Assembly: GCA_026984795.1 (NCBI GenBank) | Contig: JALSRK010000021.1 | Location: 1 to 64,000, forward strand | Direction: 5' to 3' | Source of the DNA: Solibacteraceae bacterium | GTDB lineage: Bacteria; Acidobacteriota; Terriglobia; Bryobacterales; Bryobacteraceae | DNA: 64,000 bases | Shown here: piece after piece, positions 18,540 through 34,173 of the stretch | Numbering within the stretch: position 1 is the first letter of the stretch | Layout of the letters: each line of letters begins with the position of its first letter | Program-made: the position numbers and the translations under genes | The notes under the pieces: generated by a model | Databases searched by the model: none | What the model was told of the DNA's origin: nothing | The model's input: only the letters and a program-made list of their open reading frames with translations

Positions 18540-21500
18540 ATGGCTGAAAACCGCCTGGCAAACCGCATCGGCCAGCGCATCTCGTTGCCGGGGCATTTCG
18601 ATGTTCCAGTGCTCTTGGAAGATGCAAGGGCCCTAGGACCCGACGGCTCGGCAGGCTACGAATGCCGGGTACGGCTTCCCGATGGCACGCTCGAAGAGGC
18701 GGTTATCTCGGCTGAGGAGGCCTCCGCAATCCTCGGTGCGGACCACCAGCCACCGGCCGCCGCGACCCCGGCAGACCCCGAGAAACTCCGGCTTCTTGTG
18801 GAATCGGCGCGGATTCGGCTTGCTTACGCGCATGATCCGCAGTTCGCCGTCAGCCTGTCCGGCATCCGGACGCTGCCGCACCAGATCGAAGCGGTTTACC
18901 AGAAGATGCTCCCACAGCCCCGGCTACGCTTCCTCCTGGCGGACGACCCCGGCGCCGGCAAAACCATCATGGCGGGCCTCCTCATCAAGGAGCTGAAGCT
19001 GCGGGAGGCCATCGAGCGTATCCTCATCCTCTGCCCCGCGCCCCTCACGATCCAGTGGCAGGATGAGATGCTCCGCTGGTTCGGCGAGCCGTTCGACATC
19101 ATCTTTTCCGCCGTAGACCAGCAGCAGCTCACAAACCCGTGGCAACGCTCCTCCCAGGTCATTTCGTCGATCGACTACGCCAAACAAGAGGACGTCCGCG
19201 AACGCGTGTGGCAGCAGCGGTGGGATCTCGTGGTCATCGACGAGGCCCACAAGTGTTCGGCCTACACGAAATCTCGCACGGAGCGTAGCGACCAAGTCGT
19301 CGAGACCAAGCGGTACCAGCTTGCGAAGCGGCTGTGCGATCAAGCCGACCATGTGCTTCTGCTCACCGCGACGCCTCATCACGGCAACGAAGACAAGTTT
19401 GCCCATTTCCTCCGTTTGGTTGACCCGGACCTGTTTCCGGAACCTCATCGTCTCGGCCCGCAGGCGGCAGAGATCCGCAAGGATATCTTCAAACTCGGCC
19501 GGAACTCCCCGTGGTCACTGCGCCGGCTCAAGGAGGACCTAAGGGATCTCAACGGAAGGAGGCTGTTCCCGGACCGGCACGCGAAGACGGTCAGGTTCCA
19601 GCTCAACAGCGACGAGTACGCCCTCTACAAGTCCGTCACGGCCTACATCAATGAGTTCATCCCCCAGCAGACAGGACAGCGCCGCTCATCGGCGGCTCTC
19701 ACGCGGACGGTATTGCAGCGGCGCTTGGTGAGCTCCACCTGCGCTATCCATGAGTCCCTCAAGCGGCGATTGAAGAAGCAACAGCAGCTTCTCGAAGAGC
19801 TGGAGGGCCTGTCGCCAGCGCAGCGGGCGAAGCGCTTGGCGGCGCTTCACGGACGTCTTTCCGATGCCGAACAGGAAGAGGATGATCTCGACGACGCGAT
19901 CCGCGACCAGCTCGTGGACGAGTTCACCGCAGCGCTGGAACTCGACGAGCTCAGAGGCGAGATCGCGGCCCTTCAGGAACTTGTCGAACAGGCCAGGAGG
20001 GTGCGCGAACAGGCAAACGATTCGAAGCTGGCCGCGCTCCAGAAGTGCCTCGGCGAGGCGCAGTTTGCCGAACTCAAGGACGGGAGAGGTAAGCTCCTTA
20101 TTTTCACGGAGCACCGGGATACGCTGTCCTACCTCCGGCAACATTTGGAGCGGTGGGGCTACACAACGTGTGAGATCCACGGCGGCATGAACCCGCACGA
20201 GCGCAAGCGAGCGCAGGAACAGTTCCGCACGGCAGCCCAGATTTGCGTGGCGACGGAAGCAGCCGGCGAAGGGATCAACCTTCAGTTCTGCCACCTCATG
20301 ATCAACTACGATATGCCGTGGAATCCCACGCGCCTGGAGCAGCGGCTGGGACGTATCCACCGCATCGGGCAGGAGCGGGATGTCTACGCCTTTAACTTCG
20401 TCGCCACGGAGTCCAAGGAGGGGCAGCCGATCGTCGAAGGGAGAATCCTGCATCGGCTCTTGGAGAAGCTCGACAGCATGAACGAGGCGCTGGAGGGACG
20501 AGTCTTTGACGTAATCGGCGAGGTGTTGGCCCTTAACGATGTGAATCTTCCGGAGATCTTGAGGGAGGCCGCCTACGACCCGCGCAGGCTTGACGAGTAC
20601 ATCGACCAGATCGACCGGATCGATCCGGCAAAGTTGAAACAGTACGAAGAAGCGACCGGCATCGCGTTGGCGCGCAGCCACGTGGATTTCAGCGGGTTCC
20701 AGCGCTTGAACTTGGAGGTGGAGGAAAAGCGCCTCATGCCGCGCTACGTGGAGGCGCAGTTCGTCGCCGCCGCCAAGGAAGTGGGCCTACGCATCGAGCC
20801 GCGGGCCGATGGTCTGTGGCGCGTCGAGCACGTGCCGGCCGACTTGCGATCCGAACGGCTCCAGTCAGTGCGCCGGTTGGGGAAAGCCGATCCGTCTTAC
20901 CGGAAGATCACGTTTCACAAGCAGCACCTCGAGCAGGATGCGCATCTCGACGCAGTGTTGCTCGGCCCGGGACATCCGCTTTACGCGGCGGTGGACGAGA
21001 AGCTGAACGAACGCCTCGAAAAGCTGCAAGGAGGAGTCGGATTCTACGTTGATCCCCTGACCACAGAACCGTACAAGCTACACTTTTTCGAGATTTCGAT
21101 TCGCGGCAAGGACAGCAGAGGTAACGACGTTCCGCTGCATGGCGAACTGGTGGCGGTGCGGGAACTGCGCGGAAGGTTCGAAGTCGTGCCGAGCGATATG
21201 CTCCTCAACCTTCCGCCCCATCAAGCCCCGCCGGCGAAAGTTGAGCCCCTCGATACGCAGGCCGCCTCAGACTACCTCAAGAGCACGTATCAGTTGGAGT
21301 GCCGCTCCCGGTGCCAACGAGAGCGGCAGCGCTTCGCGGAGATCTGCCGGGAGTACCTTGAGCGCTCTTTTGACGTCCGGATCAAACGCGCGCAAGAGCG
21401 GGCGATGCGCCTGGCGGCGGAGGCGACAAGCAAACCCGAGTACAAGCTGCCGGCAGACGAGGCCCGCAAACACGTCGAGGAGTTGCAACGCGCCCGGGCC

Positions 21501-22052
21501 GCGCGGCTGAGTGGTCTCACCCGCCTGGGGATCGCTCGCACCGGCCCAGTCCGTCATCTCGCTACGGCGATCGTCCTGGCGCCCGGAGCCGACACGGAAA
21601 GCCAACTGGCTGAACTCGCCGACGAGTTGGATCCGAATGTCCGGAGGAAGAGCGAGCTGGCGGCCGAGGACCTCGTCGTGGCGGCACTCAAAGAAGAGGG
21701 GTTCCCCGAAGAGCGCATCGAACGTGTGGGACACTTGAAGCTCGGTTTCGACATACGCGCGCACCGGGTCACGGACGACGCGACAGGCGAAGTGCTCGTC
21801 AAGCGGATCGAAGTGAAGGGACGCAAACGCGGCCAGCCGGTGCGGCTCACGACGAATGAGTGGTACAAAGCCGACCAACTTGGCGAAACGTACTGGCTTT
21901 ACGTGGTGTGGGACCCGCTCGGCGAATCACCCGAGCTGGTGCGCATCCAGAACCCGGCCGTGTGTCTCGATCACGCCAAGCGGGAGATCGTGGCGGCCAG
22001 GTTCTTTGAGATTCCGGCGGAGGCGCTTCTTTCATACGCAGATACACTCTAG
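18540..22052 (+). CDS. SNF2-type helicase with C-terminal DUF3883 (BrxHII/DrmD-like)
   Basis: 1170 residues. SNF2 superfamily 2 motor: Walker A GAGKT at residues 138-142 (DDPGAGKTIMAG), DEAH box D234-H237, and QRLGRIHRIGQ near residue 600. A charged helical stretch at about 410-510 is probably coiled coil. The C-terminus (~1050-1150) is DUF3883, with D1071 and E1091-V-K1093 in the PD-(D/E)xK arrangement, so it may be a nuclease-like domain. Related helicases occur in BREX type 3 (BrxHII) and class 1 DISARM (DrmD). The ATG of the next gene follows the stop directly. Function in defence is inferred from context. Confidence 0.88.
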   Translation: MAENRLANRIGQRISLPGHFDVPVLLEDARALGPDGSAGYECRVRLPDGTLEEAVISAEEASAILGADHQPPAAATPADPEKLRLLVESARIRLAYAHDPQFAVSLSGIRTLPHQIEAVYQKMLPQPRLRFLLADDPGAGKTIMAGLLIKELKLREAIERILILCPAPLTIQWQDEMLRWFGEPFDIIFSAVDQQQLTNPWQRSSQVISSIDYAKQEDVRERVWQQRWDLVVIDEAHKCSAYTKSRTERSDQVVETKRYQLAKRLCDQADHVLLLTATPHHGNEDKFAHFLRLVDPDLFPEPHRLGPQAAEIRKDIFKLGRNSPWSLRRLKEDLRDLNGRRLFPDRHAKTVRFQLNSDEYALYKSVTAYINEFIPQQTGQRRSSAALTRTVLQRRLVSSTCAIHESLKRRLKKQQQLLEELEGLSPAQRAKRLAALHGRLSDAEQEEDDLDDAIRDQLVDEFTAALELDELRGEIAALQELVEQARRVREQANDSKLAALQKCLGEAQFAELKDGRGKLLIFTEHRDTLSYLRQHLERWGYTTCEIHGGMNPHERKRAQEQFRTAAQICVATEAAGEGINLQFCHLMINYDMPWNPTRLEQRLGRIHRIGQERDVYAFNFVATESKEGQPIVEGRILHRLLEKLDSMNEALEGRVFDVIGEVLALNDVNLPEILREAAYDPRRLDEYIDQIDRIDPAKLKQYEEATGIALARSHVDFSGFQRLNLEVEEKRLMPRYVEAQFVAAAKEVGLRIEPRADGLWRVEHVPADLRSERLQSVRRLGKADPSYRKITFHKQHLEQDAHLDAVLLGPGHPLYAAVDEKLNERLEKLQGGVGFYVDPLTTEPYKLHFFEISIRGKDSRGNDVPLHGELVAVRELRGRFEVVPSDMLLNLPPHQAPPAKVEPLDTQAASDYLKSTYQLECRSRCQRERQRFAEICREYLERSFDVRIKRAQERAMRLAAEATSKPEYKLPADEARKHVEELQRARAARLSGLTRLGIARTGPVRHLATAIVLAPGADTESQLAELADELDPNVRRKSELAAEDLVVAALKEEGFPEERIERVGHLKLGFDIRAHRVTDDATGEVLVKRIEVKGRKRGQPVRLTTNEWYKADQLGETYWLYVVWDPLGESPELVRIQNPAVCLDHAKREIVAARFFEIPAEALLSYADTL

Positions 22053-22815: not shown

Positions 22816-25800
22816 ATGTCGACAGATGACCGCCGACTTATTGAAGACTACCTCCCCATCCAAGCGATCAGCGCCGAGGCATCCCGGGAGAAGTCGGTCC
22901 GGAAGGGGCATATCTCCACGCTTCACCTTTGGTGGGCCCGGCGGCCGCTGGTCGCCTGCCGTGCCGCCGTGTACGGCGCACTCGTGCCGATCAGCCGCTT
23001 TCGGCCGGCGAATGGCCCCGAAGAGAAACGCGACAGTCTGGCTCGGGCCAACGCCGCGAGGTTCGTAGAGCGGCTTTGCAAGTACCCAGGAGACCCCACT
23101 GTCATCAAACAGGCGGAGCGGCATATCCTCGAGGCCCACGCGGAGCGGTTGACCAAGGAAACGGGCAAGAAGGTCACGGTGGAGGACATCGAAGAGGGAC
23201 GGGCTCCGCGTCCGAAGGTGCTGGACATGTTCGCCGGCGGAGGCTCGATTCCGCTGGAAGCGCTCCGGCTGGGCTGCGAGGCCTATGCGCTGGATCTCAA
23301 CCCGGTCGCGCACATCATCGAGCTCTGCACACTGGTCTATCCACAGAAGTACGGCAAGCCTGACCCGACCGCTCGGGGGATGACAGGACCTCCTGGTCCC
23401 GACGGAAAACCCACGTGGGGCGGCCTGGCCGAGGAGGTCCGATACTGGGGCAACTGGGTGCTGGAGAAGGTGAAGGCAGAGATCGGGGATCTCTACCCGC
23501 CGCTACCCGATCTGGAATGGTGGCACCAGGTGGGCCAGGCTGCCAGCCTGGCAACACAGACTCCAATGTTCCCCTCCGTCAAGAAGGGAGTAGCCAAGAC
23601 AAGGCGGAAGCTACCTCACTGGGAAAAGGTAGGTGGCTGCTACTTCGTTACTTACCGAACCAAAGACGGCTTCACACTGCCGGACAAGGCGCGGGACGTC
23701 GTGCTTGAGAACTGGAAATACTGGTCCGGTGAACGGTACGACCTGTGGCAAGTCGTCGTGATGCCAGACCATGTGCACCTTCTTCTCAGCCCCCTGCAGA
23801 AACATGATGGTTCGTATTGGACATTATCCGAGATCCTGCATACCGCGAAAAGCTATAGCGCGAACCAGATCAACAAGATCCTTGGGCGTTCCGGCTCTCT
23901 GTGGCAGGACGAGCGCTTCGACCACCTCATCCGGAACCCTGCGTCCTTTGAAGAGAAGTGGCACTACATTCGGCAGAACCCGTGCAAGGCCGGGCTGGTG
24001 CTTCGGCCTGACGATTATCCGTGGCTGTATGAAGATGACGGGCTGGCAGCCCGTCCCACGTTGACTCCAGTGGCCTACCTCTGGACCCGGACCGTGCAGT
24101 GCAAGAACCCATCCTGCCGTGCGACGGTGCCCTTGGTGAAACAGACTTGGCTTTGCAAGAAGAAAGGTCGCAAAAAGCGCCCCGGCCGGTACGTCGCCTT
24201 GAAGATTATCGCTCCGAAGGGCGAGAAGAAGGTGCGCTTCGAGGTGGTCGAGGCGATGACGGAGAAGGGACTTGGATTTGACCCCTCTGTGGGCTCGAAA
24301 GGCGGCAATGCCACTTGTCCGTTCTGCGGCACGGTGGCGGATGCCGACTACGTGCAAGCGCTCGGCAAGTACGCGGCCGTTGGTACTCAGCTGATGGCCG
24401 TGGTCTGCACCAACCCCCAGGGTAGAGGAAAGCAATATATCCCAGATCCATCTATCATCGATCAGTTTATCCCAAGTGACGCTGATGTTCAGAGGCGAAT
24501 CTGTGTCCTAAGTAGCACGACAGGATTCACACTGCCCACAGAGCGAATCAATCCTCTGCGTCCCTCACCGAACGCACGCGGCCTCTCAGCTGTTACCCGT
24601 CACGGATTTGCAAGCTTTGGAGACCTTTTCACACCTAGACAATTGCTGGCCCACATGACCTACGGATGTGCAGTTCGGGAAGTCTTTGACCGAATTGGAA
24701 CAAGCGAAATGGGCAAGGCAATTGCCGCAACACTAGCGCTGGTGGTCAGCCGTACCACCGACTGGAATAGCGCAAACTGTAGGTGGTTCTCTCAAGGCGA
24801 AAACAACCTCAATACTTTTGGGCGCCAGCCGCTACCGATGCTATGGGACTTCTGTGAAACAAACGCGGTCATCAGAAAGGCTGAAAGCTTTGAAACCCTT
24901 TTGGAAGCGTTGATAGATGCTCTTCCAGGAATCGGTGACATGCCCAAAGCCGCAGAGTGCGAACGGGGCACGACCACGCAACTTTCAGAACCACGTGCTT
25001 CCTATGATGCCGTTGTGACTGATCCGCCCTACTACGACAACGTTCCGTATGCCGACATCTCAGACTTCTTCTATGTGTGGCTCAAACGGATTCTTGGTCC
25101 GGTCTTTCCAGAGCATTTCGCATCAGAGCTGACACCTAAGAAGATGGAGGCCACGGCCCTGGCGAACCGGCATGGTGGTGATATGGCCAGGGCAACGACC
25201 GAGTATGAATCCATGATGATAGAATCTCTGAGAGAAGCTCAGCGCGTTTTGAAGGCCGGGGCGCCGCTTGTCGTCGTCTATGCTCATAAAACCACGCTCG
25301 GGTGGTCTACTCTTGTTGACGCTATCCGGAAGGCCGGATTCACAGTGACAGAAGCGTGGCCAATGGACACCGAGGTAGGTTCTCGTCTGGTGGCAACAAA
25401 TGCTTCCGCTCTCGCCTCCAGCATCTTTCTTGTCGCCCGAAAACGTGAGGGACACAAAACCGGTTCTTACGAGGATGAGGTTCAGTCTGAGCTCGACCAT
25501 ATCGTCCGCGAGCGGGTTGACTCGCTCTGGCAGATGGGCATCACCGGGGCGGACTTGGTGATTGCGGCGGTGGGCGCCGGCCTGCGCGCGTTCACGCGGT
25601 TCGCCCGCGTCGAGTACGCAAACGGCGAAGAGGTGCCGGCGGAGAAGTTCCTGGCGGAAGTAGAAGGGGTGGTCCTTGAGACGCTGCTGGAGAAGATCTT
25701 CAAGGTAGCAGGGGCGGGTGTCGCGGCGGTGGACGGCCCGAGCCGCTTCTACGTGCTGTGGCGCTACACGTACAAGACGGCCGAGATGGACGCCGGCGAA

Positions 25801-26280
25801 GCCATTGTGTTCACCTACGGCCAGAACGTGGAACTGGACGGTCCGAACGGCCTCTCGGCGGGTACCCGTGCCTTGGTTGAGAAAAAGAAAGGAAAGTACC
25901 GTTTGCTTGACTTCACCGAGCGTGGCGACAACGAGAAGCTGGGGCTTTCCGTGGGACCGGCTGCCAGCCGGTCGGCATCGGGGGCAGGCTCGCAGCCTGC
26001 TCCACTGATTGATGTTCTGCACCGAATCCTTTGGCTGATGGAATATGAGCCCAGGAGCTTGAACCGCTTCCTGGACGAAGCCCAGCCCGACCGGGAACGG
26101 CTGCGGCTGCTCGCGCAAGCGCTGGCCGGCGCTGCCCTCGAAGGGAGCCGCGATAATGGAGGGGAACACGCGGTCGCCACCACACCGGCCGAGCAGGCGG
26201 CACTCAAGAAACTGCTTGCCAACTGGCGGGCGCTCATCGAGCGGCGGCTGGCAGCCGGTCCGCTTTTTGCGGGTGCTTAG
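22816..26280 (+). CDS. DUF1156 adenine-specific DNA methylase (PglXI-like) with in-frame RAYT transposase insertion
   Basis: 1154 residues, longer than usual for the family. The N-terminal DUF1156 shows ISTLHLWWARRPLVACRA. The SAM-binding motif is LDMFAGGGS at 136-144. The catalytic motif is DPPYYDN starting at D736, so N6-adenine methylation is expected. A Zn-ribbon-like CKNPSC and CPFCG pair lies between. Between the SAM motif and the Zn ribbon, residues ~240-414 are foreign: a full REP-associated tyrosine transposase domain whose frame reads through both ends. Residues ~1047-1062 are encoded by two more REP hairpins. About 24420-25480 is more AT-rich than its flanks, suggesting mosaic ancestry. 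Whether the chimera methylates DNA is unknown. Confidence 0.88.
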   Translation: MSTDDRRLIEDYLPIQAISAEASREKSVRKGHISTLHLWWARRPLVACRAAVYGALVPISRFRPANGPEEKRDSLARANAARFVERLCKYPGDPTVIKQAERHILEAHAERLTKETGKKVTVEDIEEGRAPRPKVLDMFAGGGSIPLEALRLGCEAYALDLNPVAHIIELCTLVYPQKYGKPDPTARGMTGPPGPDGKPTWGGLAEEVRYWGNWVLEKVKAEIGDLYPPLPDLEWWHQVGQAASLATQTPMFPSVKKGVAKTRRKLPHWEKVGGCYFVTYRTKDGFTLPDKARDVVLENWKYWSGERYDLWQVVVMPDHVHLLLSPLQKHDGSYWTLSEILHTAKSYSANQINKILGRSGSLWQDERFDHLIRNPASFEEKWHYIRQNPCKAGLVLRPDDYPWLYEDDGLAARPTLTPVAYLWTRTVQCKNPSCRATVPLVKQTWLCKKKGRKKRPGRYVALKIIAPKGEKKVRFEVVEAMTEKGLGFDPSVGSKGGNATCPFCGTVADADYVQALGKYAAVGTQLMAVVCTNPQGRGKQYIPDPSIIDQFIPSDADVQRRICVLSSTTGFTLPTERINPLRPSPNARGLSAVTRHGFASFGDLFTPRQLLAHMTYGCAVREVFDRIGTSEMGKAIAATLALVVSRTTDWNSANCRWFSQGENNLNTFGRQPLPMLWDFCETNAVIRKAESFETLLEALIDALPGIGDMPKAAECERGTTTQLSEPRASYDAVVTDPPYYDNVPYADISDFFYVWLKRILGPVFPEHFASELTPKKMEATALANRHGGDMARATTEYESMMIESLREAQRVLKAGAPLVVVYAHKTTLGWSTLVDAIRKAGFTVTEAWPMDTEVGSRLVATNASALASSIFLVARKREGHKTGSYEDEVQSELDHIVRERVDSLWQMGITGADLVIAAVGAGLRAFTRFARVEYANGEEVPAEKFLAEVEGVVLETLLEKIFKVAGAGVAAVDGPSRFYVLWRYTYKTAEMDAGEAIVFTYGQNVELDGPNGLSAGTRALVEKKKGKYRLLDFTERGDNEKLGLSVGPAASRSASGAGSQPAPLIDVLHRILWLMEYEPRSLNRFLDEAQPDRERLRLLAQALAGAALEGSRDNGGEHAVATTPAEQAALKKLLANWRALIERRLAAGPLFAGA
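23534..23552. repeat. REP hairpin, left end of RAYT element
   Basis: GCCAGGCT, loop GCC, AGCCTGGC: a perfect 8-bp stem with 3-base loop. The loop reads GCC on the + strand, opposite to the right-end hairpin. Confidence 0.8.
24037..24055. repeat. REP hairpin, right end of RAYT element
   Basis: GACGGGCT, loop GGC, AGCCCGTC: a perfect 8-bp stem. The inverted loop shows it is in opposite orientation to the left hairpin, as expected for the two ends of a RAYT unit. Confidence 0.8.
25955..26000. repeat. Second REP pair, inside the methylase coding sequence
   Basis: GACCGGCT-GCC-AGCCGGTC (25955-25973) and GCAGGCT-CGC-AGCCTGC (25984-26000) are two adjacent hairpins sharing the GGCT/AGCC core with the RAYT ends. 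They are in frame and encode the alanine/serine-rich stretch GPAASRSASGAGSQPAP in the C-terminal part of the methylase. Confidence 0.75.
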
Positions 26281-26767: not shown

Positions 26768-26863
26768 GTGAGGCGCCCTAGCGAAGTCGTGACCGAGCGG
26801 GAAGCGCAGCCGGATCGTTGGGCGCAGGGCCTGGCGCTGTTCGGCAAGGAGGATAGGGGATGA
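26768..26863 (+). CDS. Possible 31-residue leader peptide or gene remnant
   Basis: A GTG at 26768 opens a frame (VRRPSEVVTEREAQPDRW, then AQGLALFGKEDRG) that ends in a TGA overlapping the DUF433 start by 4 bases (ATGA). The overlap and codon use hint at translation, perhaps to couple the toxin-antitoxin pair to upstream genes. It could equally be a trimmed remnant of a longer gene. No similarity recognised. Confidence 0.25.
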   Translation: MRRPSEVVTEREAQPDRWAQGLALFGKEDRG

Positions 26864-27111
26864 CGGAACAGGATTGGAAGGAACGGATCTCGATCGATCC
26901 GAATGTGTGTCACGGCCGACCTTGCATCAAGGGCACGCGGATCTGGGTGTCGCTGATTGTCGAAAACCTGGCGGCAGGTGTTTCTGAGAAAGAGCTGCTC
27001 GAGGCCTATCCGCAGTTGACGATCGAGGACATTCGGGCGGCGCTCGCCTACGCCGCCGAGATGACGCGGGAACGCGTTATTCCCATCCCGGTGAAGACTG
27101 ACGGGCCATGA
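26860..27111 (+). CDS. DUF433 antitoxin (VapB-like)
   Basis: 83 residues. Begins RISIDPNVCHGRPCIKGTRI and continues VSLIVENLAAGVSEKELLEAYPQLTIEDIRAALAYA in two blocks, the standard DUF433 pattern with a helix-turn-helix core. DUF433 proteins pair with DUF5615 PIN-like toxins, and the partner follows with a 4-bp overlap. AAGGAGGATAGGGG provides a good ribosome site. It probably neutralises the toxin and represses the pair; its place within the defence operon is notable. Confidence 0.9.
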   Translation: MTEQDWKERISIDPNVCHGRPCIKGTRIWVSLIVENLAAGVSEKELLEAYPQLTIEDIRAALAYAAEMTRERVIPIPVKTDGP

Positions 27112-27494
27112 AGTTGAAGCTGGATGAGAACTTTGACTTGCGGCTCGTGCCTTTGCTCCAGACCGAAGGCTTTGACGTCGATACCGTTCAGGACGAAGGG
27201 CTATCGGGGTGCCAGGATGAGACACTCTATCGGGTCTGCCGGGACTCGCGGCAGGTACTGGTCACGCTGGACCTCGATTTCTCGAATTCCCTCCGATATC
27301 CCCCGGAGCCCACAGAAGGCATTGTCATTGTGCGTATCCCCAGACCTGTGTTGAGCCTCGTGCGACAGACCCTCCTGAGCGCGTTGCCCATGTTGAAGTC
27401 CGGCCCCCTCAAAGGAGCTTTGTGGATTGTCGAACCGGGAAGGATTCGCATTCACGAGCCGAAGGAGACGACCGGTTTGGAGGAGTCTGAATGA
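27108..27494 (+). CDS. DUF5615 PIN-like toxin
   Basis: 128 residues. LKLDENFDLRLVPLL at the N-terminus and LVTLDLDFSNSLRYPP in the middle supply the acidic residues of the PIN/Mut7-C-like fold found in DUF5615 toxins. The start overlaps the DUF433 stop (ATGA) and the end overlaps the DUF499 gene by 4 bp, so the whole stretch is translationally linked. The family is predicted to cleave RNA. Confidence 0.88.
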   Translation: MKLKLDENFDLRLVPLLQTEGFDVDTVQDEGLSGCQDETLYRVCRDSRQVLVTLDLDFSNSLRYPPEPTEGIVIVRIPRPVLSLVRQTLLSALPMLKSGPLKGALWIVEPGRIRIHEPKETTGLEESE

Positions 27495-30405
27495 CGACAC
27501 GAACGCTTCGCCCCTGGACTGATTTGGTGAAGCTCCACCCTGATGTGGAGGCGGGAGCGCTCACCGAAGCGGTGTTTGCCATCGATCTGGGAGCCATCGC
27601 CGCGGGAGATCCGAACGTCCCGGTGGTGAACCGGGATGCGGAGGCATTCTTCCGGGCGACATATTTGACGGCCGATCTCCGGAAGCTACTCGAGGAGGTG
27701 TTGGCGTCCCTGGCCGGCCGATCGGGCTACAACCGCGTGCTCAAGCTCCGCACGCCATTTGGCGGGGGAAAGTCCCACACCCTGGCTTCGCTTCTCCATG
27801 CTGCGCGCCGGCGGGACGCCCTCGATAACATTCCGGAGGCCCAAGGGTTCGCGCGCCCCGAGAACGTGGCCGTGGCGGTGTTCGACGGGGAGAAGTTTGA
27901 CGCCCGCAATGGTAAGACGCTGGAGAACGGACAGACAATCCGCACAATGTGGGGGTGGCTCGCTTGGCAGATCGACCCCGACAAGGCCTTTCCCATCGTT
28001 GCTGAACACGATGCGGACCGCGTGGCCCCGGGTGGAGATGTCATCCGGGAGTTATTGACGAAAGGGGCGGACCGACGCCCGGTCTTGATCCTGTTGGACG
28101 AGGTGCTGAAGTACATGGAAAGGGCCGCGGCGGTCAGCGTGCTCGACTCGACGCTTCAGCGGCAGGCCAAGGACTTCTTCCAGAACCTCACGGTGGAGGT
28201 CTCGGGGAGCCACAACGCGGCGCTCGTGTATTCGTTGACGTGGAGCGCCCGGGAGGCCCTCGGGAATGTCGCCCTGTTAGCGGAGATCGACAAGCTTGCA
28301 TCCCGGGTGGACCAGCTCAGGGAGCCAGTGACCGGCGACGAGATCCTGCCCATATTGCAGCGCCGGCTTCTCGGGGCGCCTCCTGACACGGGTGCGGCGG
28401 CCGAGGTGGCCACGGCGTACGAGGAAGTCGTGACAGGTATGAGAAGGGCTTATGCCGAATCGACGGCGGAGCGCTTGCAGGCCGATGAAGAGGGCAAGCT
28501 CTTTCGAGACCGGATGCGCAGGGCCTACCCATTTCACCCTGCTCTGATCGACGTCATGCGGGAGCGGTGGACTGCGGTGGACGCCTTTCAGCGGACGCGC
28601 GGCGCGCTGCGGTTTCTAGCATCTTGCCTTTACTCGCTCAAGAAGAACGGGGGAGCGCAGCCGATCCTGGGGCCGGGAGACGTACCGCTGAAAGATGTCG
28701 ATGTCCGCGTCAAGATGTTGAAAGAGCTTGGCGCTCAAAACGACTACGACCCGGTAATTACAGCCGACATCGAGGGGCCGAACGCGCGGGCCAAGAGGAT
28801 CGATGAGCGGTTCGCGCGGGAGTCGCCGGCCTTGGCAAGTGTAAAGCCGGCGACGCGGTTGGCTACCGCGATCCTCTTGTACTCGTTCGGTGGGCTGCAC
28901 CGTGAAGGGGTGGGTGAAGGGGAAACCCTGCCTCCTGGCGTGACCGAAAGCGAATTACTGGCGGCCTGTGTAGGGCCGGATCTCGACAACATCACGGCCA
29001 CGGCTGTGCTCTCCGAACTCCGTACCACCTGCCTGTACCTGCACTATGACGGGGTCCGCTACTGTTTCAAGAAGGATCCCAACATCACGAAGCTCATCGA
29101 GGACGAAGAACAGACCATCGCCAAAGAAAAGACGAGCGCAAGGGGCAACGGGCCGGTCCGCACACGGATCAAGGAGATGCTCGAGAAGCGGCTGGCCGGG
29201 CATCACAATGCTGTGGTCTGGCCTGTGAAGAGCCAAGAGATCCAGGATGAAGACCCGCAGTTTCTTGTCGCGTATCTTCCGCTCGACTTCGCGCGAGAAA
29301 CACGCACCGAACAAGAGCGCTGGGCGAAAGAACTGCTCACGAAGCATGGGGACCGCCCGAGGCGCTACCGGAACGGGCTTGGGCTGGCGATCCCGCACAA
29401 GAAACGGATTGAGGCCCTTTCCCGCGCCGTGCGGTACCTGCTGGCTATTGAGCGCGTCGAAGCCAGGAAGAAGCAGCTGCGGCTTTCGAAAGACCAATTG
29501 GATCAGCTTAAAGAGCGGCGCCGGACTGAAGAAGCGGCAGCGGAGTCCGCGTTTCGCGACCTCTACACCAGCGTCTGGTTGCCCCGGGTCGAGGGAGGCG
29601 CCCTGGAAATCGAGAAGGTGGAGCGTGGGGGACGGCCGCTCCAGGCGACTGGCATCCATGAGCGGATCATGGAGCTGCTGACGAGCGTCGGGGCGCCCCG
29701 CGTTTACGGCAGTGTCACCCCGCGCAAGATCGCTGAACGGGTGAGGTTGGGCGAGGCCCCGGCCGAGGGGGAACCGCCGGTTCTGGGGGTCAAGGCATCG
29801 GACGTACTGGAGGCATTCTTCCGGGACATCACCCCACCGCGTCTGGAATCCTCCGATGTCGTGCGCAGGGGCATTGCTCGGGGCGTCTCCGAAGGAGCGT
29901 TCGCCTATACAAGCGGCGCCTACCCGGCGCTGGGGGCCGACGGCAAGTTCGAGGTGAATCCAGACAAAGTCGTCATCGGGCGGCCGCTGGCGGAAGATGA
30001 AGTCGATTTCGATTCCGGATTTCTCATGGTTCCTTCAGCGATCCCGGAGAAGGCGGCTGCTGAACCTGGCGTCTCGGCCGGCGGGGAAGAAACGGCGGTA
30101 GAAACAAAGGACGCCGGAGATCAAGAAGTCAAGGCGGGGGGATCACTGGCACGGGCACTGGTCCCACAGCCGTATCGCAGAGGAACGTCTGTCTCACATT
30201 CAAAGCCACACGAGACCAGCTTTTCAAAGCGTTCCCAGCTCTGGCGAATCTGGCGGACAAGTCGATTGATGGAAAGCTGACCGTGCGAGTTGAGGGGAGT
30301 TCGCCGGATGGCTATGATCCTCTCTGGCTTCGCAATGCGGTCGAAGAGCCCCTGGACGAGGCGAATGTGGAGTGGGTTCCAGAGGAGGATTTGGCCCGGG
30401 AGTAG
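27491..30405 (+). pseudogene. DUF499 AAA ATPase (BrxC/PglY-like), frameshifted near the 3-prime end
   Basis: The intact frame runs to 30280 (929 residues). Walker A is TPFGGGKSHT near residue 90, with LILLDEV as Walker B. The true C-terminus lies in another frame: from about 30170 it reads TFKATRDQLFKAFPALANLA and later DGYDPLWLRNAVEEPLDEA, ending at TAG 30403-30405. The frames meet at a run of six G (30136-30141); one more G would restore an ORF of about 971 residues. This may be an assembly error, a mutation or phase variation. DUF499 ATPases co-occur with DUF1156 methylases and SNF2 helicases, including in BREX type 3-like systems. The annotated product would otherwise end in 40 aberrant residues. 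Confidence 0.8.
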
Positions 30406-31784: not shown

Positions 31785-32159
31785 ATGGCTGCTGTTTGGC
31801 TCATGAAGAACCGGCCCATCAATCCGGACTTCGACGGCATTGACCACGCCCTACTGACCGACGCGCTGACGTCACAAGACTGGCGACAGAAGTCCGCCGT
31901 CCGGCGGATCGACGGCAAGGTGACCTTCGTGAGCGTACTTTTGCTCGAGGAGTTGGAGGCCGGGGAGCGCAAGTTCGCGGTGCGGGTTGATGGGACGCCT
32001 GAGAAGGGCCGGGGGTTCCAGGACGACCGGCTGGAAGATACCCTCGCTTACGCCAATAGCCTCGGCGATCCCGCCCCGCGAGGCGAATGGCCGCCGGAAC
32101 GGGAGCCGCCGTGGACGGTCGTCTGCTTCGGACGATTCGAAGGTGGAGGAGGGACATGA
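31785..32159 (+). CDS. Hypothetical protein coupled to a serine recombinase
   Basis: 124 residues, no family recognised. The N-terminus MAAVWLMKNRPINPDFDGID is followed by a mixed charged region and a tryptophan/proline-rich end (GEWPPEREPPWTVVCFGRFE). Its stop overlaps the recombinase start (ATGA), so the two are probably co-translated and part of one mobile unit. No transmembrane segment or signal peptide is seen. Confidence 0.5.
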   Translation: MAAVWLMKNRPINPDFDGIDHALLTDALTSQDWRQKSAVRRIDGKVTFVSVLLLEELEAGERKFAVRVDGTPEKGRGFQDDRLEDTLAYANSLGDPAPRGEWPPEREPPWTVVCFGRFEGGGGT

Positions 32160-32743
32160 GAGCAGCGATTTACGCCCGGGTCTCGACGACGGACCAGGAC
32201 AATTCCCTTCAGATCGCCGAGCTGACCGAATACGTAAGGCGCCGCGGCTGGCAACTCGCCAGCGTCTACCAGGACACCCTCAGCGGCTGCAGGGGCGATC
32301 GGCCGGGGCTCGACCGCCTGATGCAGGACGCCCGGCTCCGGCGCTTCGACGTTGTCGTCGTTTGGAAGCTCGACCGCTTCGGCCGGTCGCTGGTGCATTG
32401 CGTTTCTGCGATCCAGGAGCTGGCCGGGCTCGGCATCCGCTTCATCGCGGCTTCACAGGGCCTGGACACGGACGAATCGAACCCTGCCTCGAAGCTGCTG
32501 CTTCACATTCTGGCGGCGGTGGCGGAGTTCGAACGGGAATTGATCCGGGAGCGGGTCCAGGCTGGCGTACGGAGGGCACAGGCGCAAGGGAAGCGGATCG
32601 GCCGGCCGCGGCGGGTCTTCGACCGGGAAGAGGTGCACCGGCTCCGGCGCCAGGGGCTGTCGATCGCCAAGATCGCCCGCAAGATGGGCTTGGGCGTAGG
32701 GACGGTAGCCCGGGCTCTGAAGGCTCAACAGGGGTCCTCGTAG
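32156..32743 (+). CDS. Serine recombinase (resolvase/invertase family)
   Basis: 195 residues. ATG 32156 follows GGTGGAGGAGGG. YARVSTTDQDNSLQ has the catalytic Ser (S10), GDRPGLDRLMQDARLRRFDVV precedes VWKLDRFGRS with the conserved Arg residues, and LLLHILAAVAEFERELIRER matches the dimer helix. A C-terminal helix-turn-helix (GLSIAKIARKMGLGVGTVARAL) completes a small resolvase of normal length. It would perform site-specific inversion, resolution or integration. An 18-bp inverted repeat 44 bp downstream is a candidate target. Confidence 0.9.
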   Translation: MRAAIYARVSTTDQDNSLQIAELTEYVRRRGWQLASVYQDTLSGCRGDRPGLDRLMQDARLRRFDVVVVWKLDRFGRSLVHCVSAIQELAGLGIRFIAASQGLDTDESNPASKLLLHILAAVAEFERELIRERVQAGVRRAQAQGKRIGRPRRVFDREEVHRLRRQGLSIAKIARKMGLGVGTVARALKAQQGSS

Positions 32744-32786
32744 GCACGACAGGAAATACGGCAGCGGCGGTGGGCCGGCGCGACTG

Positions 32787-32880
32787 TGCGGGCGGATGCG
32801 GACGGTCTTCTTGCCAAACTTTTCGTTCTTAGATTGCAGATTGCGAACTCTTGTGAATTCTACGTCCGCGTCCGCCCGCA
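32787..32880. repeat. 18-bp inverted repeat enclosing 58 bp, downstream of the recombinase
   Basis: The left arm (32787-32804) and right arm (32863-32880) are inverted copies with one mismatch; the core is TGCGGGCGGA-C/T-GCGGACG. The 58-bp interior is distinctly AT-rich and holds a tandem direct repeat AGATTGC AGATTGC (32831-32844). It could be a res-like recombination site, a miniature element or an invertible segment. Confidence 0.6.
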
Positions 32881-32973
32881 GCCGGTCTACCCGAGACCAG
32901 ACGGCGTTCCAAAAACCTGCCTGCAGAGCGCCCGTCTCGCTGCTGAATTCAAAGCGCTTATGAGAGCGGTACC

Positions 32974-33004
32974 GAACGTTCCAAAAGGTTCAGTTTTCGG
33001 AACG
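32974..33004. promoter_or_regulatory. Hairpin/palindrome upstream of the ADP-ribosylglycohydrolase
   Basis: The palindrome GAACGTTC (32974-32981) overlaps an imperfect hairpin, CGTTCCAAAA then GGTTCAG then TTTTCGGAACG (32977-33004), with one bulged base. The GAACGTTC and CGGAACG words recall sites A and B near 2.25 and 6.87 kb, but the spacing differs. It could be an operator or an RNA hairpin. Confidence 0.35.
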
Positions 33005-33081: not shown

Positions 33082-34173
33082 ATGGACAGCCTTCTTCGGT
33101 TCCGCGAGCTCTTGGCATCGAGCCGCATCCGCGTCCGCGACGGCGAGATCTTCCGGCAGAGTCCGCCGGAGCTGCCCGACGGCTTCGATTTCTCGCGCGT
33201 CGAGGGGATGCTGCTGGGCCTGGCCATCGGCGACGCTCTCCGCAACACCACTGAAAGTCAGTCGCCCCGCACCCGGTACGAGCAGCACGGCGAGATCCGC
33301 GACTACCTGGTCCATCCGTGGAACGGCGACGCGCGCGGCTATCCCTCCGACGACACCCAGTTGGCTTTTTGGACGCTCGAGCAGGCGTTGGAAGATGGCG
33401 GCTTCGATCCGGCCTCGCTCGCCCGGCGCTTCGCCCGACGCCGCATCTTCGGCATCGGCAACACCGTCCGGCAGTTCCAGTTCAACTACGGCGCCGGCGA
33501 GCCCTGGGAACGCTGCGGCGTCCCCTCGGCCGGCAACGGAGCGCTGATGCGGATCGCGCCGATCCTGGTCCCGCACCTGCGGAACCCCTCGCCCGCCCTG
33601 TGGGCCGACACCGCCCTCTGCACCATGATCACTCACAACGATTCGATGGCCATCGCTTCCTCGATCGCCTTCGTGGCCGTGCTGTGGGATCTGCTGCGGG
33701 CCGGGAAGCCGCCGGTGCCGGCGTGGTGGCTCGAGCGGTTCCTCGCCGTACTCAAAGAGACCGAACGCGACGAATCCTACCGCCCGCGCAGCCCACGCCT
33801 AGCGGGATTCCAAGGGCCGCTGTGGAGGCTCCTGGAGGAGGAGCTGCCACGGGCTTGGGAGGCCGGGCTCACCGTGTGCAAGGCCGCCGACCGGTGGTAT
33901 TCGGGCGCCTACCTGCTCGAGACCGTGCCCTGCGTCCTCTACATTCAGATGAAGCACGGCGGCGATCCCGAAGAGGCCATCGTCCGCGCGGTGAACGAGA
34001 CCCGGGACAACGACACGGTAGCGGCCATCGTCGGGGCGGCGGTGGGTGCACTTCACGGCCGGGCCGGACTCCCCGGGCGGTGGATCGAAGCTCTCTCCGG
34101 CCGCACCCGGTCCGACGACGACGGTCGCGTCTTCGAGCTGATCCGGCAGACGGCCGAAGTCTTCGCTCCGTAG
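33082..34173 (+). CDS. ADP-ribosylglycohydrolase family protein
   Basis: 363 residues. ATG 33082 is preferred (GGAGGG seven bases upstream) over the upstream open frame. Family motifs: RVEGMLLGLAIGDALRNT, SDDTQLAFWTLEQ with the metal-binding D-D-T, VPSAGNGALMRIAP, and ETRDNDTVAAIVGAAVGALHG with the late D-N-D ligands. These enzymes remove ADP-ribose from proteins or nucleic acids, and DraG-like members reverse ADP-ribosylation. It stands beside a recombinase and may be mobile cargo; some members occur in defence or toxin-antitoxin settings, but no ADP-ribosyltransferase partner is in the window. Confidence 0.88.
   Translation: MDSLLRFRELLASSRIRVRDGEIFRQSPPELPDGFDFSRVEGMLLGLAIGDALRNTTESQSPRTRYEQHGEIRDYLVHPWNGDARGYPSDDTQLAFWTLEQALEDGGFDPASLARRFARRRIFGIGNTVRQFQFNYGAGEPWERCGVPSAGNGALMRIAPILVPHLRNPSPALWADTALCTMITHNDSMAIASSIAFVAVLWDLLRAGKPPVPAWWLERFLAVLKETERDESYRPRSPRLAGFQGPLWRLLEEELPRAWEAGLTVCKAADRWYSGAYLLETVPCVLYIQMKHGGDPEEAIVRAVNETRDNDTVAAIVGAAVGALHGRAGLPGRWIEALSGRTRSDDDGRVFELIRQTAEVFAP

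Follow-up and report, generated by a model that had tools for sequence, protein, structure and literature searches.

The recombinase locus

The window analysed here is a stretch of 64,000 nucleotides from the genome assembly of a Solibacteraceae bacterium (Acidobacteriota; GCA_026984795.1, contig JALSRK010000021.1). Near its middle, the gene for a small serine recombinase is followed by an inverted repeat, a candidate two-part recombination site and an ADP-ribosylglycohydrolase gene, in the following arrangement:

31785-32159, + strand: open reading frame of 124 aa without a family match, overlapping the recombinase start by 4 bp (ATGA)
32156-32743, + strand: small serine recombinase, 195 aa (Pfam Resolvase PF00239, aa 3-146, E 4.3e-44)
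32787-32804, + strand: left arm of the reported 18-bp inverted repeat, TGCGGGCGGATGCGGACG
32805-32862, no strand: 58-bp AT-rich core between the arms, with the tandem AGATTGC AGATTGC at 32831-32844
32863-32880, - strand: right arm of the reported 18-bp inverted repeat, CGTCCGCGTCCGCCCGCA
32905-32915, + strand: putative accessory half-site, CGTTCCAAAAA, 72 bp before the dyad and 10/11 identical to the dyad's own half-site
32977-33004, no strand: 28-bp dyad, putative crossover site (site I), CGTTCCAAAAGGT-TC-AGTTTTCGGAACG, with 10/13 half-site positions symmetric
33082-34173, + strand: ADP-ribosylglycohydrolase gene (Pfam E 3.6e-56), the neighbour downstream of the candidate site

The recombinase displays the features by which small serine recombinases are recognized, namely a Resolvase domain with the catalytic serine at residue 10, a short C-terminal helix-turn-helix and a length of 195 aa, within the range of approximately 180-210 aa. 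Matches to HTH_38 (E 5.5e-6) and HTH_7 (E 2.1e-4), both just below the Pfam cut-off, fall within aa 149-190. Its best relative of solved structure is the DNA-invertase 4m6f (E 2.3e-30, with the RVST motif aligned); the DNA-invertase 3uj3 is also among the closest solved chains, and 1gdt and 5cy1 are among the PDB matches. We take both 4m6f and 3uj3 to be Gin. The gene is present as a single copy in its own genome (search at E <= 0.001), and the closest relatives found, at 70-75% identity, are those of loci L009, L010 and L011, whose MAGs carry the labels Bryobacterales, Terriglobia and Acidobacteriia; these loci also turn up among the genomes of the window's own family. Ten relatives are encoded in viral contigs at 47-59% identity. 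A terminase large subunit (L151), an exonuclease (L146) and, at a distance of about 2 kb, HNH endonucleases (L156) are encoded close to some of the homologs, which makes the family phage-borne at least in part. Some Bacillus plasmid prophages are described as carrying small serine recombinases of 192-195 aa (PMC8026635). Among the genes scanned near the recombinase of the window there is an Hma defence cluster but none of phage type. Neighbouring genes were considered as a guide to function and set aside, with 15 of 20 in one set and 5 of 10 in another lacking a Pfam match.

The 124-aa protein has no Pfam, NCBIfam or PADLOC match. The genome holds two copies of its gene, the second (51% identical, G000:C16:73298-73636) without a recombinase of the window's family. 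The ADP-ribosylglycohydrolase gene is treated here as a neighbour only, with a putative place in the recombinase system at most; a partial second copy of its N-terminal half (G000:C5:18508-19140 versus window 33082-33714, 90% over 618 aligned bp) begins its similarity at the start codon and ends inside the gene.

Further upstream in the window, the Hma-type methylase HmaB (22816-26280, PADLOC E 4.9e-126) is flanked by a helicase-like open reading frame at 18540-22052, recognized by eye only, and by HmaC at 27491-30280. An almost full-length domain of the REP-associated tyrosine transposase (RAYT) type is embedded in the HmaB frame at aa 268-403, scoring 88.4 bits in NCBIfam against a cut-off of 80. 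This domain is missing from the HmaB homolog of genome G080, where query aa 250-413 find no match; the corresponding methylase parts of Synechocystis sp. B12 have an open reading frame with an endonuclease domain between them. A small gene pair inside the Hma cluster, at 26860-27494, has no PADLOC match; in Synechocystis sp. B12 the methylase pieces are followed by an annotated DUF433 and DUF5615 PIN-like pair, which suggests that the two pairs are putatively the same.

A candidate two-part site downstream of the gene

A scan of the window for dyads identified the 28-bp element at 32977-33004, along with a third copy of its half-site at 32905. The dyad is laid out as 13-2-13, with an A/T core and a 2-bp centre, and dyads of the stricter core rule number one in the window and none in the control, which consists of 400 kb of the 5.2-Mb own genome (20 stretches from two contigs). 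Dyad and half-site together reach a combined score of 20, the maximum over 1500 control windows being 16, and apart from the copy at -72 there are no half-sites of at least 9/11 within 170 bp of the dyad. In its sequence the candidate shows two features expected of a res site, a dyad-symmetric crossover site with a 2-bp centre and a putative accessory binding motif at a fixed distance, the offset of -72 being recurrent in part of the relatives. The half-site sequence CGTTCCRAAA also occurs three times just 5' of a 42%-identical Kitasatospora recombinase (L013), which suggested a recombinase site. An exact 11-mer search of the assembly, of a kind that misses degenerate copies, yielded no second whole site and one lone half-site copy in contig C15.

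Dyads of the same type recur downstream of related recombinase genes. Among same-order loci, A-core dyads of at least 8/13 are present in 12 of 27 downstream stretches versus 2 of 28 upstream; at 9/13 or better the counts are 9/27 downstream (within 250 bp) and 0/28 upstream, and at 10/13 or better 6/27 and 0/28. At these three thresholds, 74, 19 and 9 of 3000 control windows contain such a dyad, as do 34, 10 and 1 of the 465 far windows taken from these loci. When the A-core rule is dropped, 4 of 26 downstream stretches still contain a dyad of at least 11/13, over a background of about 0.5% (p 7e-6), and 5 of 26 contain one of at least 10/13 (p 0.008). In the relatives' dyads the A/T core is kept while the outer bases differ from locus to locus. 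The A-core rule was set after some of the loci had been viewed, hence the p-values of the A-core and half-site offset tests are optimistic and only the viral set described below is independent. Short downstream DNA led to the exclusion of L067, L136 and L138 from the count of 26 and of L136 and L138 from the counts of 27; the duplicates L058-L060 and L064 (equal to L009-L012) were removed from the dyad and combined-score tests and kept in the 68-row core scans, and two further matches of one homolog search were left out of the locus set.

The recurrence is partial. An A-core dyad of at least 8/13 was not found downstream in 15 of the 27 same-order loci. The two closest relatives, L009 and L010 (72-73%), have no such two-part site; the dyad of L011 (70%) reaches 9/13, with only 5/11 matching at -72. 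The 21-bp dyads upstream of the gene in L009-L011 were rejected as the recombinase site, since by eye they overlie promoter-like sequence; these palindromes (e.g. ATGCTGAAGCGGAATCAGCAT) lie over the presumed promoter, beside an apparent regulator gene and a small divergent gene. Two other formulations of the search were also discarded. The stricter core rule missed the Kitasatospora/Streptomyces type and, of 68 loci, retained 6 (at least 8/13) and 3 (at least 9/13) within 350 bp, and a general count of dyads without a core rule, on both sides of all loci, gave 0.56 per kb near the genes versus 0.40 in far DNA and 0.47 in the control, showing no overall excess.

The putative accessory half-site and its offset

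Each locus was then searched on both strands, at offsets from -105 to +94, for an extra copy of the half-site of its own dyad, using 13 loci (the window included) chosen for having a dyad. The offset of -72/-73 on the + strand ranks first, with a windowed z of 5.3. When half-sites and dyads were permuted among loci, 4 of 20,000 permutations were as good as the true pairing, and 15 of 20,000 were when the window was omitted; across the relatives, the sequence of the half-site co-varies with that of its own dyad. The match at -71 to -74 (+ strand) is at least 9/11 in the window, L062, L066, L067 and L081 and 8/11 in L065, L071 and L072; L076 has its half-site at -81 instead, and L011 and L139 have none at -71 to -74. 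An 11/11 half-site in this interval is also present in L077, a paralog of L081 that was left out of the offset test and has a dyad of only 7/13. Relative to the recombinase stop, the half-site starts 161 nt after it in the window, and the corresponding position lies between -60 and +44 in 13 others, its place in some relatives being inside the 3' end of the recombinase gene.

Independent viral loci and the combined score

The viral loci played no part in forming the dyad and half-site rule, and none of the ten viral proteins exceeds 70.4% identity to a member of the first set, which comprises L009-L081 and the window. Among these ten homologs, of at least 47% identity, a dyad is found downstream in five and upstream in none, and four of the five dyad-bearing loci have a half-site of at least 8/11, compared with 0 of 44 chance control dyads. 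The other 17 viral loci have a downstream dyad in four cases and a half-site in none.

A combined score of at least 16 is reached downstream by 9 of 27 first-set loci and 4 of the ten viral loci, and upstream by one and none, respectively; 18 of the 27 first-set loci do not reach it. The background at this threshold is 4 of 1500 control windows and, in far windows counted on both strands, 5/845 for the first set and 8/811 for the viral set. With the threshold raised to 17, the site is retained in 3/10 viral and 7/27 first-set loci, over a background of 0/1500 control windows and 2/811 (viral) and 2/845 (first set) far windows. None of the eleven more distant viral loci scores 16 or more (this test covered 21 of the 27 viral loci, L171-L176 being omitted), and 38 distant genome loci, at no more than 43% identity, display no downstream excess, with two sites downstream and three upstream. 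The lack of excess in both distant sets indicates that the layout belongs to this recombinase subfamily. The position of the site is not fixed, as the two-part site of L075 precedes the gene (score 18, half-site 10/11 at -73). The recombinase gene frame of L075 (G205:C14) contains an internal stop.

A recombinase and its predicted site

On the basis of these data, we consider it likely that the small serine recombinase of the window, which belongs to a family carried in part by phages, has a two-part recombination site of its own downstream of it, the site itself being a prediction from sequence comparison. What the computation bears out is the site, its location with respect to the gene in a good share of the relatives, and the co-variation between half-site and dyad. 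By analogy with the resolvase Sin, the dyad would be the part that is cut and the half-site the regulatory part. A recombinase dimer would bind the 28-bp dyad at 32977-33004 and cut at its central 2 bp, and a further subunit on the half-site at 32905-32915, which precedes the dyad by 72 bp, would help to assemble a synaptic complex, such that two sites of this kind would recombine only if correctly paired. The role is probably resolution of dimers or cointegrates, or exchange of segments between two copies of an element. Since the exact 11-mer search found no second whole site in the assembly, the copy in the window is probably an orphan from a mobile element, or one that acts only on duplicated or incoming DNA, and for the same reason local inversion in this genome is unlikely.

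Two other explanations of the dyad have to be weighed. That it is an operator or a transcription terminator seems unlikely: operators are likewise dyads, and one of the dyads (L062) has a T run after it, but by eye this is the only one of 14 that does, the 2-bp centre is too short for a hairpin loop, the dyad is mostly 3' of the gene, and a half-site 72 bp away co-varies with it. Still less probable, in our estimate, is that the dyad marks an att end of an integrated element, as where a boundary closely follows a serine recombinase gene. The precedent is that of the IME_Rho_tet elements, whose 3' boundary is placed 81-90 bp past the recombinase stop (PMC12904643). Against this, the copies L143 and L144 of genome G008 stay similar for 111 bp beyond the dyad (81% over 1072 bp), which argues that the dyad is no abrupt boundary there, in what is a single pair. 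These two copies of recombinase and site lie about 3 Mb apart; past the point where they cease to be alike, unlike DNA follows, with an acyltransferase-domain gene in L143 and a Beta_protein gene in L144, and then a shared 2.3-kb block (91%), a pattern that looks like cargo exchange beside the site.

The inverted repeat

The element that first drew attention to this locus is distinct from the predicted site. An earlier note on this DNA had described an 18-bp inverted repeat with one mismatch and a 58-bp AT-rich core containing a tandem AGATTGC, located between the recombinase and ADP-ribosylglycohydrolase genes, and this description holds in every respect. The arms are complementary at 17/18 positions (94%) across a spacer of 58 nt, the GC content of the core is 38% versus 64% across the window, and the tandem occupies 32831-32844. 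In a search for inverted repeats of 18 nt with at most one mismatch and a spacer of 0-120, this is the sole one in the window; 20 dinucleotide shuffles of the window gave a mean of 0.1, and the 400 kb of own genome gave none. It spans 94 nt in total, within the gap between the recombinase stop and the candidate half-site, 3' of the recombinase gene and 5' of the ADP-ribosylglycohydrolase gene. If the + strand is transcribed, the sole arm mismatch becomes a U-G wobble, and the fold of the surrounding 161-nt stretch has a z of -2.94, a value that none of 200 shuffled versions equals.

In its own genome the repeat was found once only, and the arms recur elsewhere there with up to three mismatches at control level (57 and 45 occurrences versus 63 and 50), and on these grounds a repeat family or MITE within the genome was ruled out. 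Outside that genome, no copy was revealed by a DNA search covering 200 of the family's 237 genomes, its own included; the source genus contains no other genome. Five short DNA matches in three other family genomes were dismissed as composition matches without the repeat, and exact matches to the left arm in two viral contigs have no inverted partner (best 12/18). Nor did the repeat turn up beside the homologous recombinases checked in other genomes. A repeat of such length is absent from the 400 bp 3' of the recombinase in all 28 same-order records (L009-L012 and L058-L081, which include the four duplicates L058-L060 and L064, and L067 with only 120 nt downstream), and none of even 14 nt occurs in the ten viral loci; the scan covered these two groups, with L013-L052, L135-L139 and L160-L176 left out. 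Among the 28 records, weaker 14-nt inverted repeats lie downstream of the recombinase in L061 and L062, that of L062 being its 28-bp-type dyad, the candidate crossover site.

On this reading the reported repeat is a hairpin of its own, lying in the spacer from gene to site, which is unusually long here. It may act as an RNA hairpin at the 3' untranslated end of the transcript of the 124-aa frame and the recombinase, with a part in processing, stability or attenuation before the ADP-ribosylglycohydrolase gene, a reading that we regard as quite possible while stopping short of calling it probable. The strong fold, the G-U wobble at the single mismatch and the intergenic position are consistent with it. 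Against it, the region has no Rfam match at gathering scores, and no repeat-bearing relatives were found in which covariation could be sought. The features of an intrinsic terminator are missing: the loop measures 58 nt, neither strand shows a T run past the stem (by eye), and terminator calling marks nothing at the repeat. Rather less likely, the repeat is the remnant of a small insertion, either a MITE-like element or a fold-back duplication, that lengthened the spacer. This origin was considered because the 94-nt repeat sits in the extra spacer DNA of the window, whose half-site starts 161 nt past the recombinase stop whereas the corresponding position is no more than 44 nt past it in the 13 relatives, and it accords with the absence of the repeat from every homolog checked; against it, direct repeats of flanking DNA are not seen beside the arms (by eye), and there is no second copy in the own genome or in 199 other family genomes.

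That the repeat is the recombinase's own site, with the arms as inverted crossover sites around a flipping 58-bp core or with the whole 94 bp as a res, is very improbable despite its proximity to the gene, its statistical singularity and its AT-rich core, given that the arms have no dyad symmetry (best half-match 6-7 of 12-15, the same as background), that it follows none of the homologs checked, that the best match to the half-site 11-mer in 32744-32904 is 7/11, and that a better, recurrent candidate adjoins it at 32905-33004. The tiny invertible switch envisaged in the earlier note is therefore unsupported, internal dyad symmetry of the arms being expected of a serine-recombinase crossover site. 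Its alternative proposal, a res-like site downstream of the recombinase, fares better as regards the existence of such a site, for which the dyad and half-site are the candidates, and not as regards the 18-bp repeat being that site.

Comparison with known recombination sites

Sin recombines at a dyad site I controlled by a site II with head-to-tail motifs, the DNA being bent between them (PMC2428073). The regulatory site III of Tn3 is an inverted repeat and site II of Sin a direct repeat (PMC9943657, PMC2428073). The candidate site resembles the res of Sin and the beta-recombinase in combining a dyad crossover site with an accessory motif oriented as one half of the dyad, and possibly in having a bend region between the two, where a weak GCAAAC-like motif near -32 occurs in part of the loci (CAAA at -31/-32 in 7 of 14, and at -27 in the window). 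Unlike Sin, it has one clear accessory half-site, 72 bp from the dyad, with this weak motif as the only second one, and it lies downstream of the gene, the half-site position of some relatives falling within the gene's 3' end.

Site I of Tn3 and gamma-delta is 28 bp long. The candidate shares this length and the 2-bp centre, and its recombinase belongs to the same protein family (1gdt, 5cy1); it departs from the Tn3 type, with its dimer sites I, II and III, of which the last two are inverted repeats, in that three dimer-binding sites were not found in the window. The closest solved chains (4m6f, 3uj3) point towards the Gin/Hin invertases, and the A-tract half-sites presumably resemble gix/hix. 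In contrast to gix/hix, no second site was found in the genome by the exact 11-mer search, which misses degenerate copies, and an accessory half-site is present at a recurrent distance.

The res-like regions of the Kitasatospora (L013) and Streptomyces (L014) loci likewise contain 28-bp dyads with a 2-bp centre (CGTTCCACAAACGATGGTTAGTGGAACG in L013) and extra half-sites, and CGTTCCRAAA is common to L013 and the window. Unlike the window, in both loci the site precedes the gene and has more half-sites, at +60, +72 and +113 in L013 and at +72, +101 and +113 in L014.

A res site laid out in this way downstream of its recombinase was not found described in the titles and abstract openings of the open-licence papers listed. 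We tentatively propose, with a confidence that falls just short of even, that the partly phage-borne small serine recombinases of Acidobacteriota use an undescribed res architecture, a 'one-and-a-half' site of half-site, approximately 61 bp and dyad that usually lies 3' of the gene and in several cases starts in its last codons, so that enzyme and cognate site would travel and co-evolve as a compact unit. The case illustrates that a conspicuous repeat may lie next to a recombinase without being its site, and that comparing relatives can pick out a better candidate. If the proposal is true, it would provide predicted cognate sites for about a dozen uncharacterised recombinases, and the natural variation of the half-sites could help to read the residues that set DNA specificity in this family.
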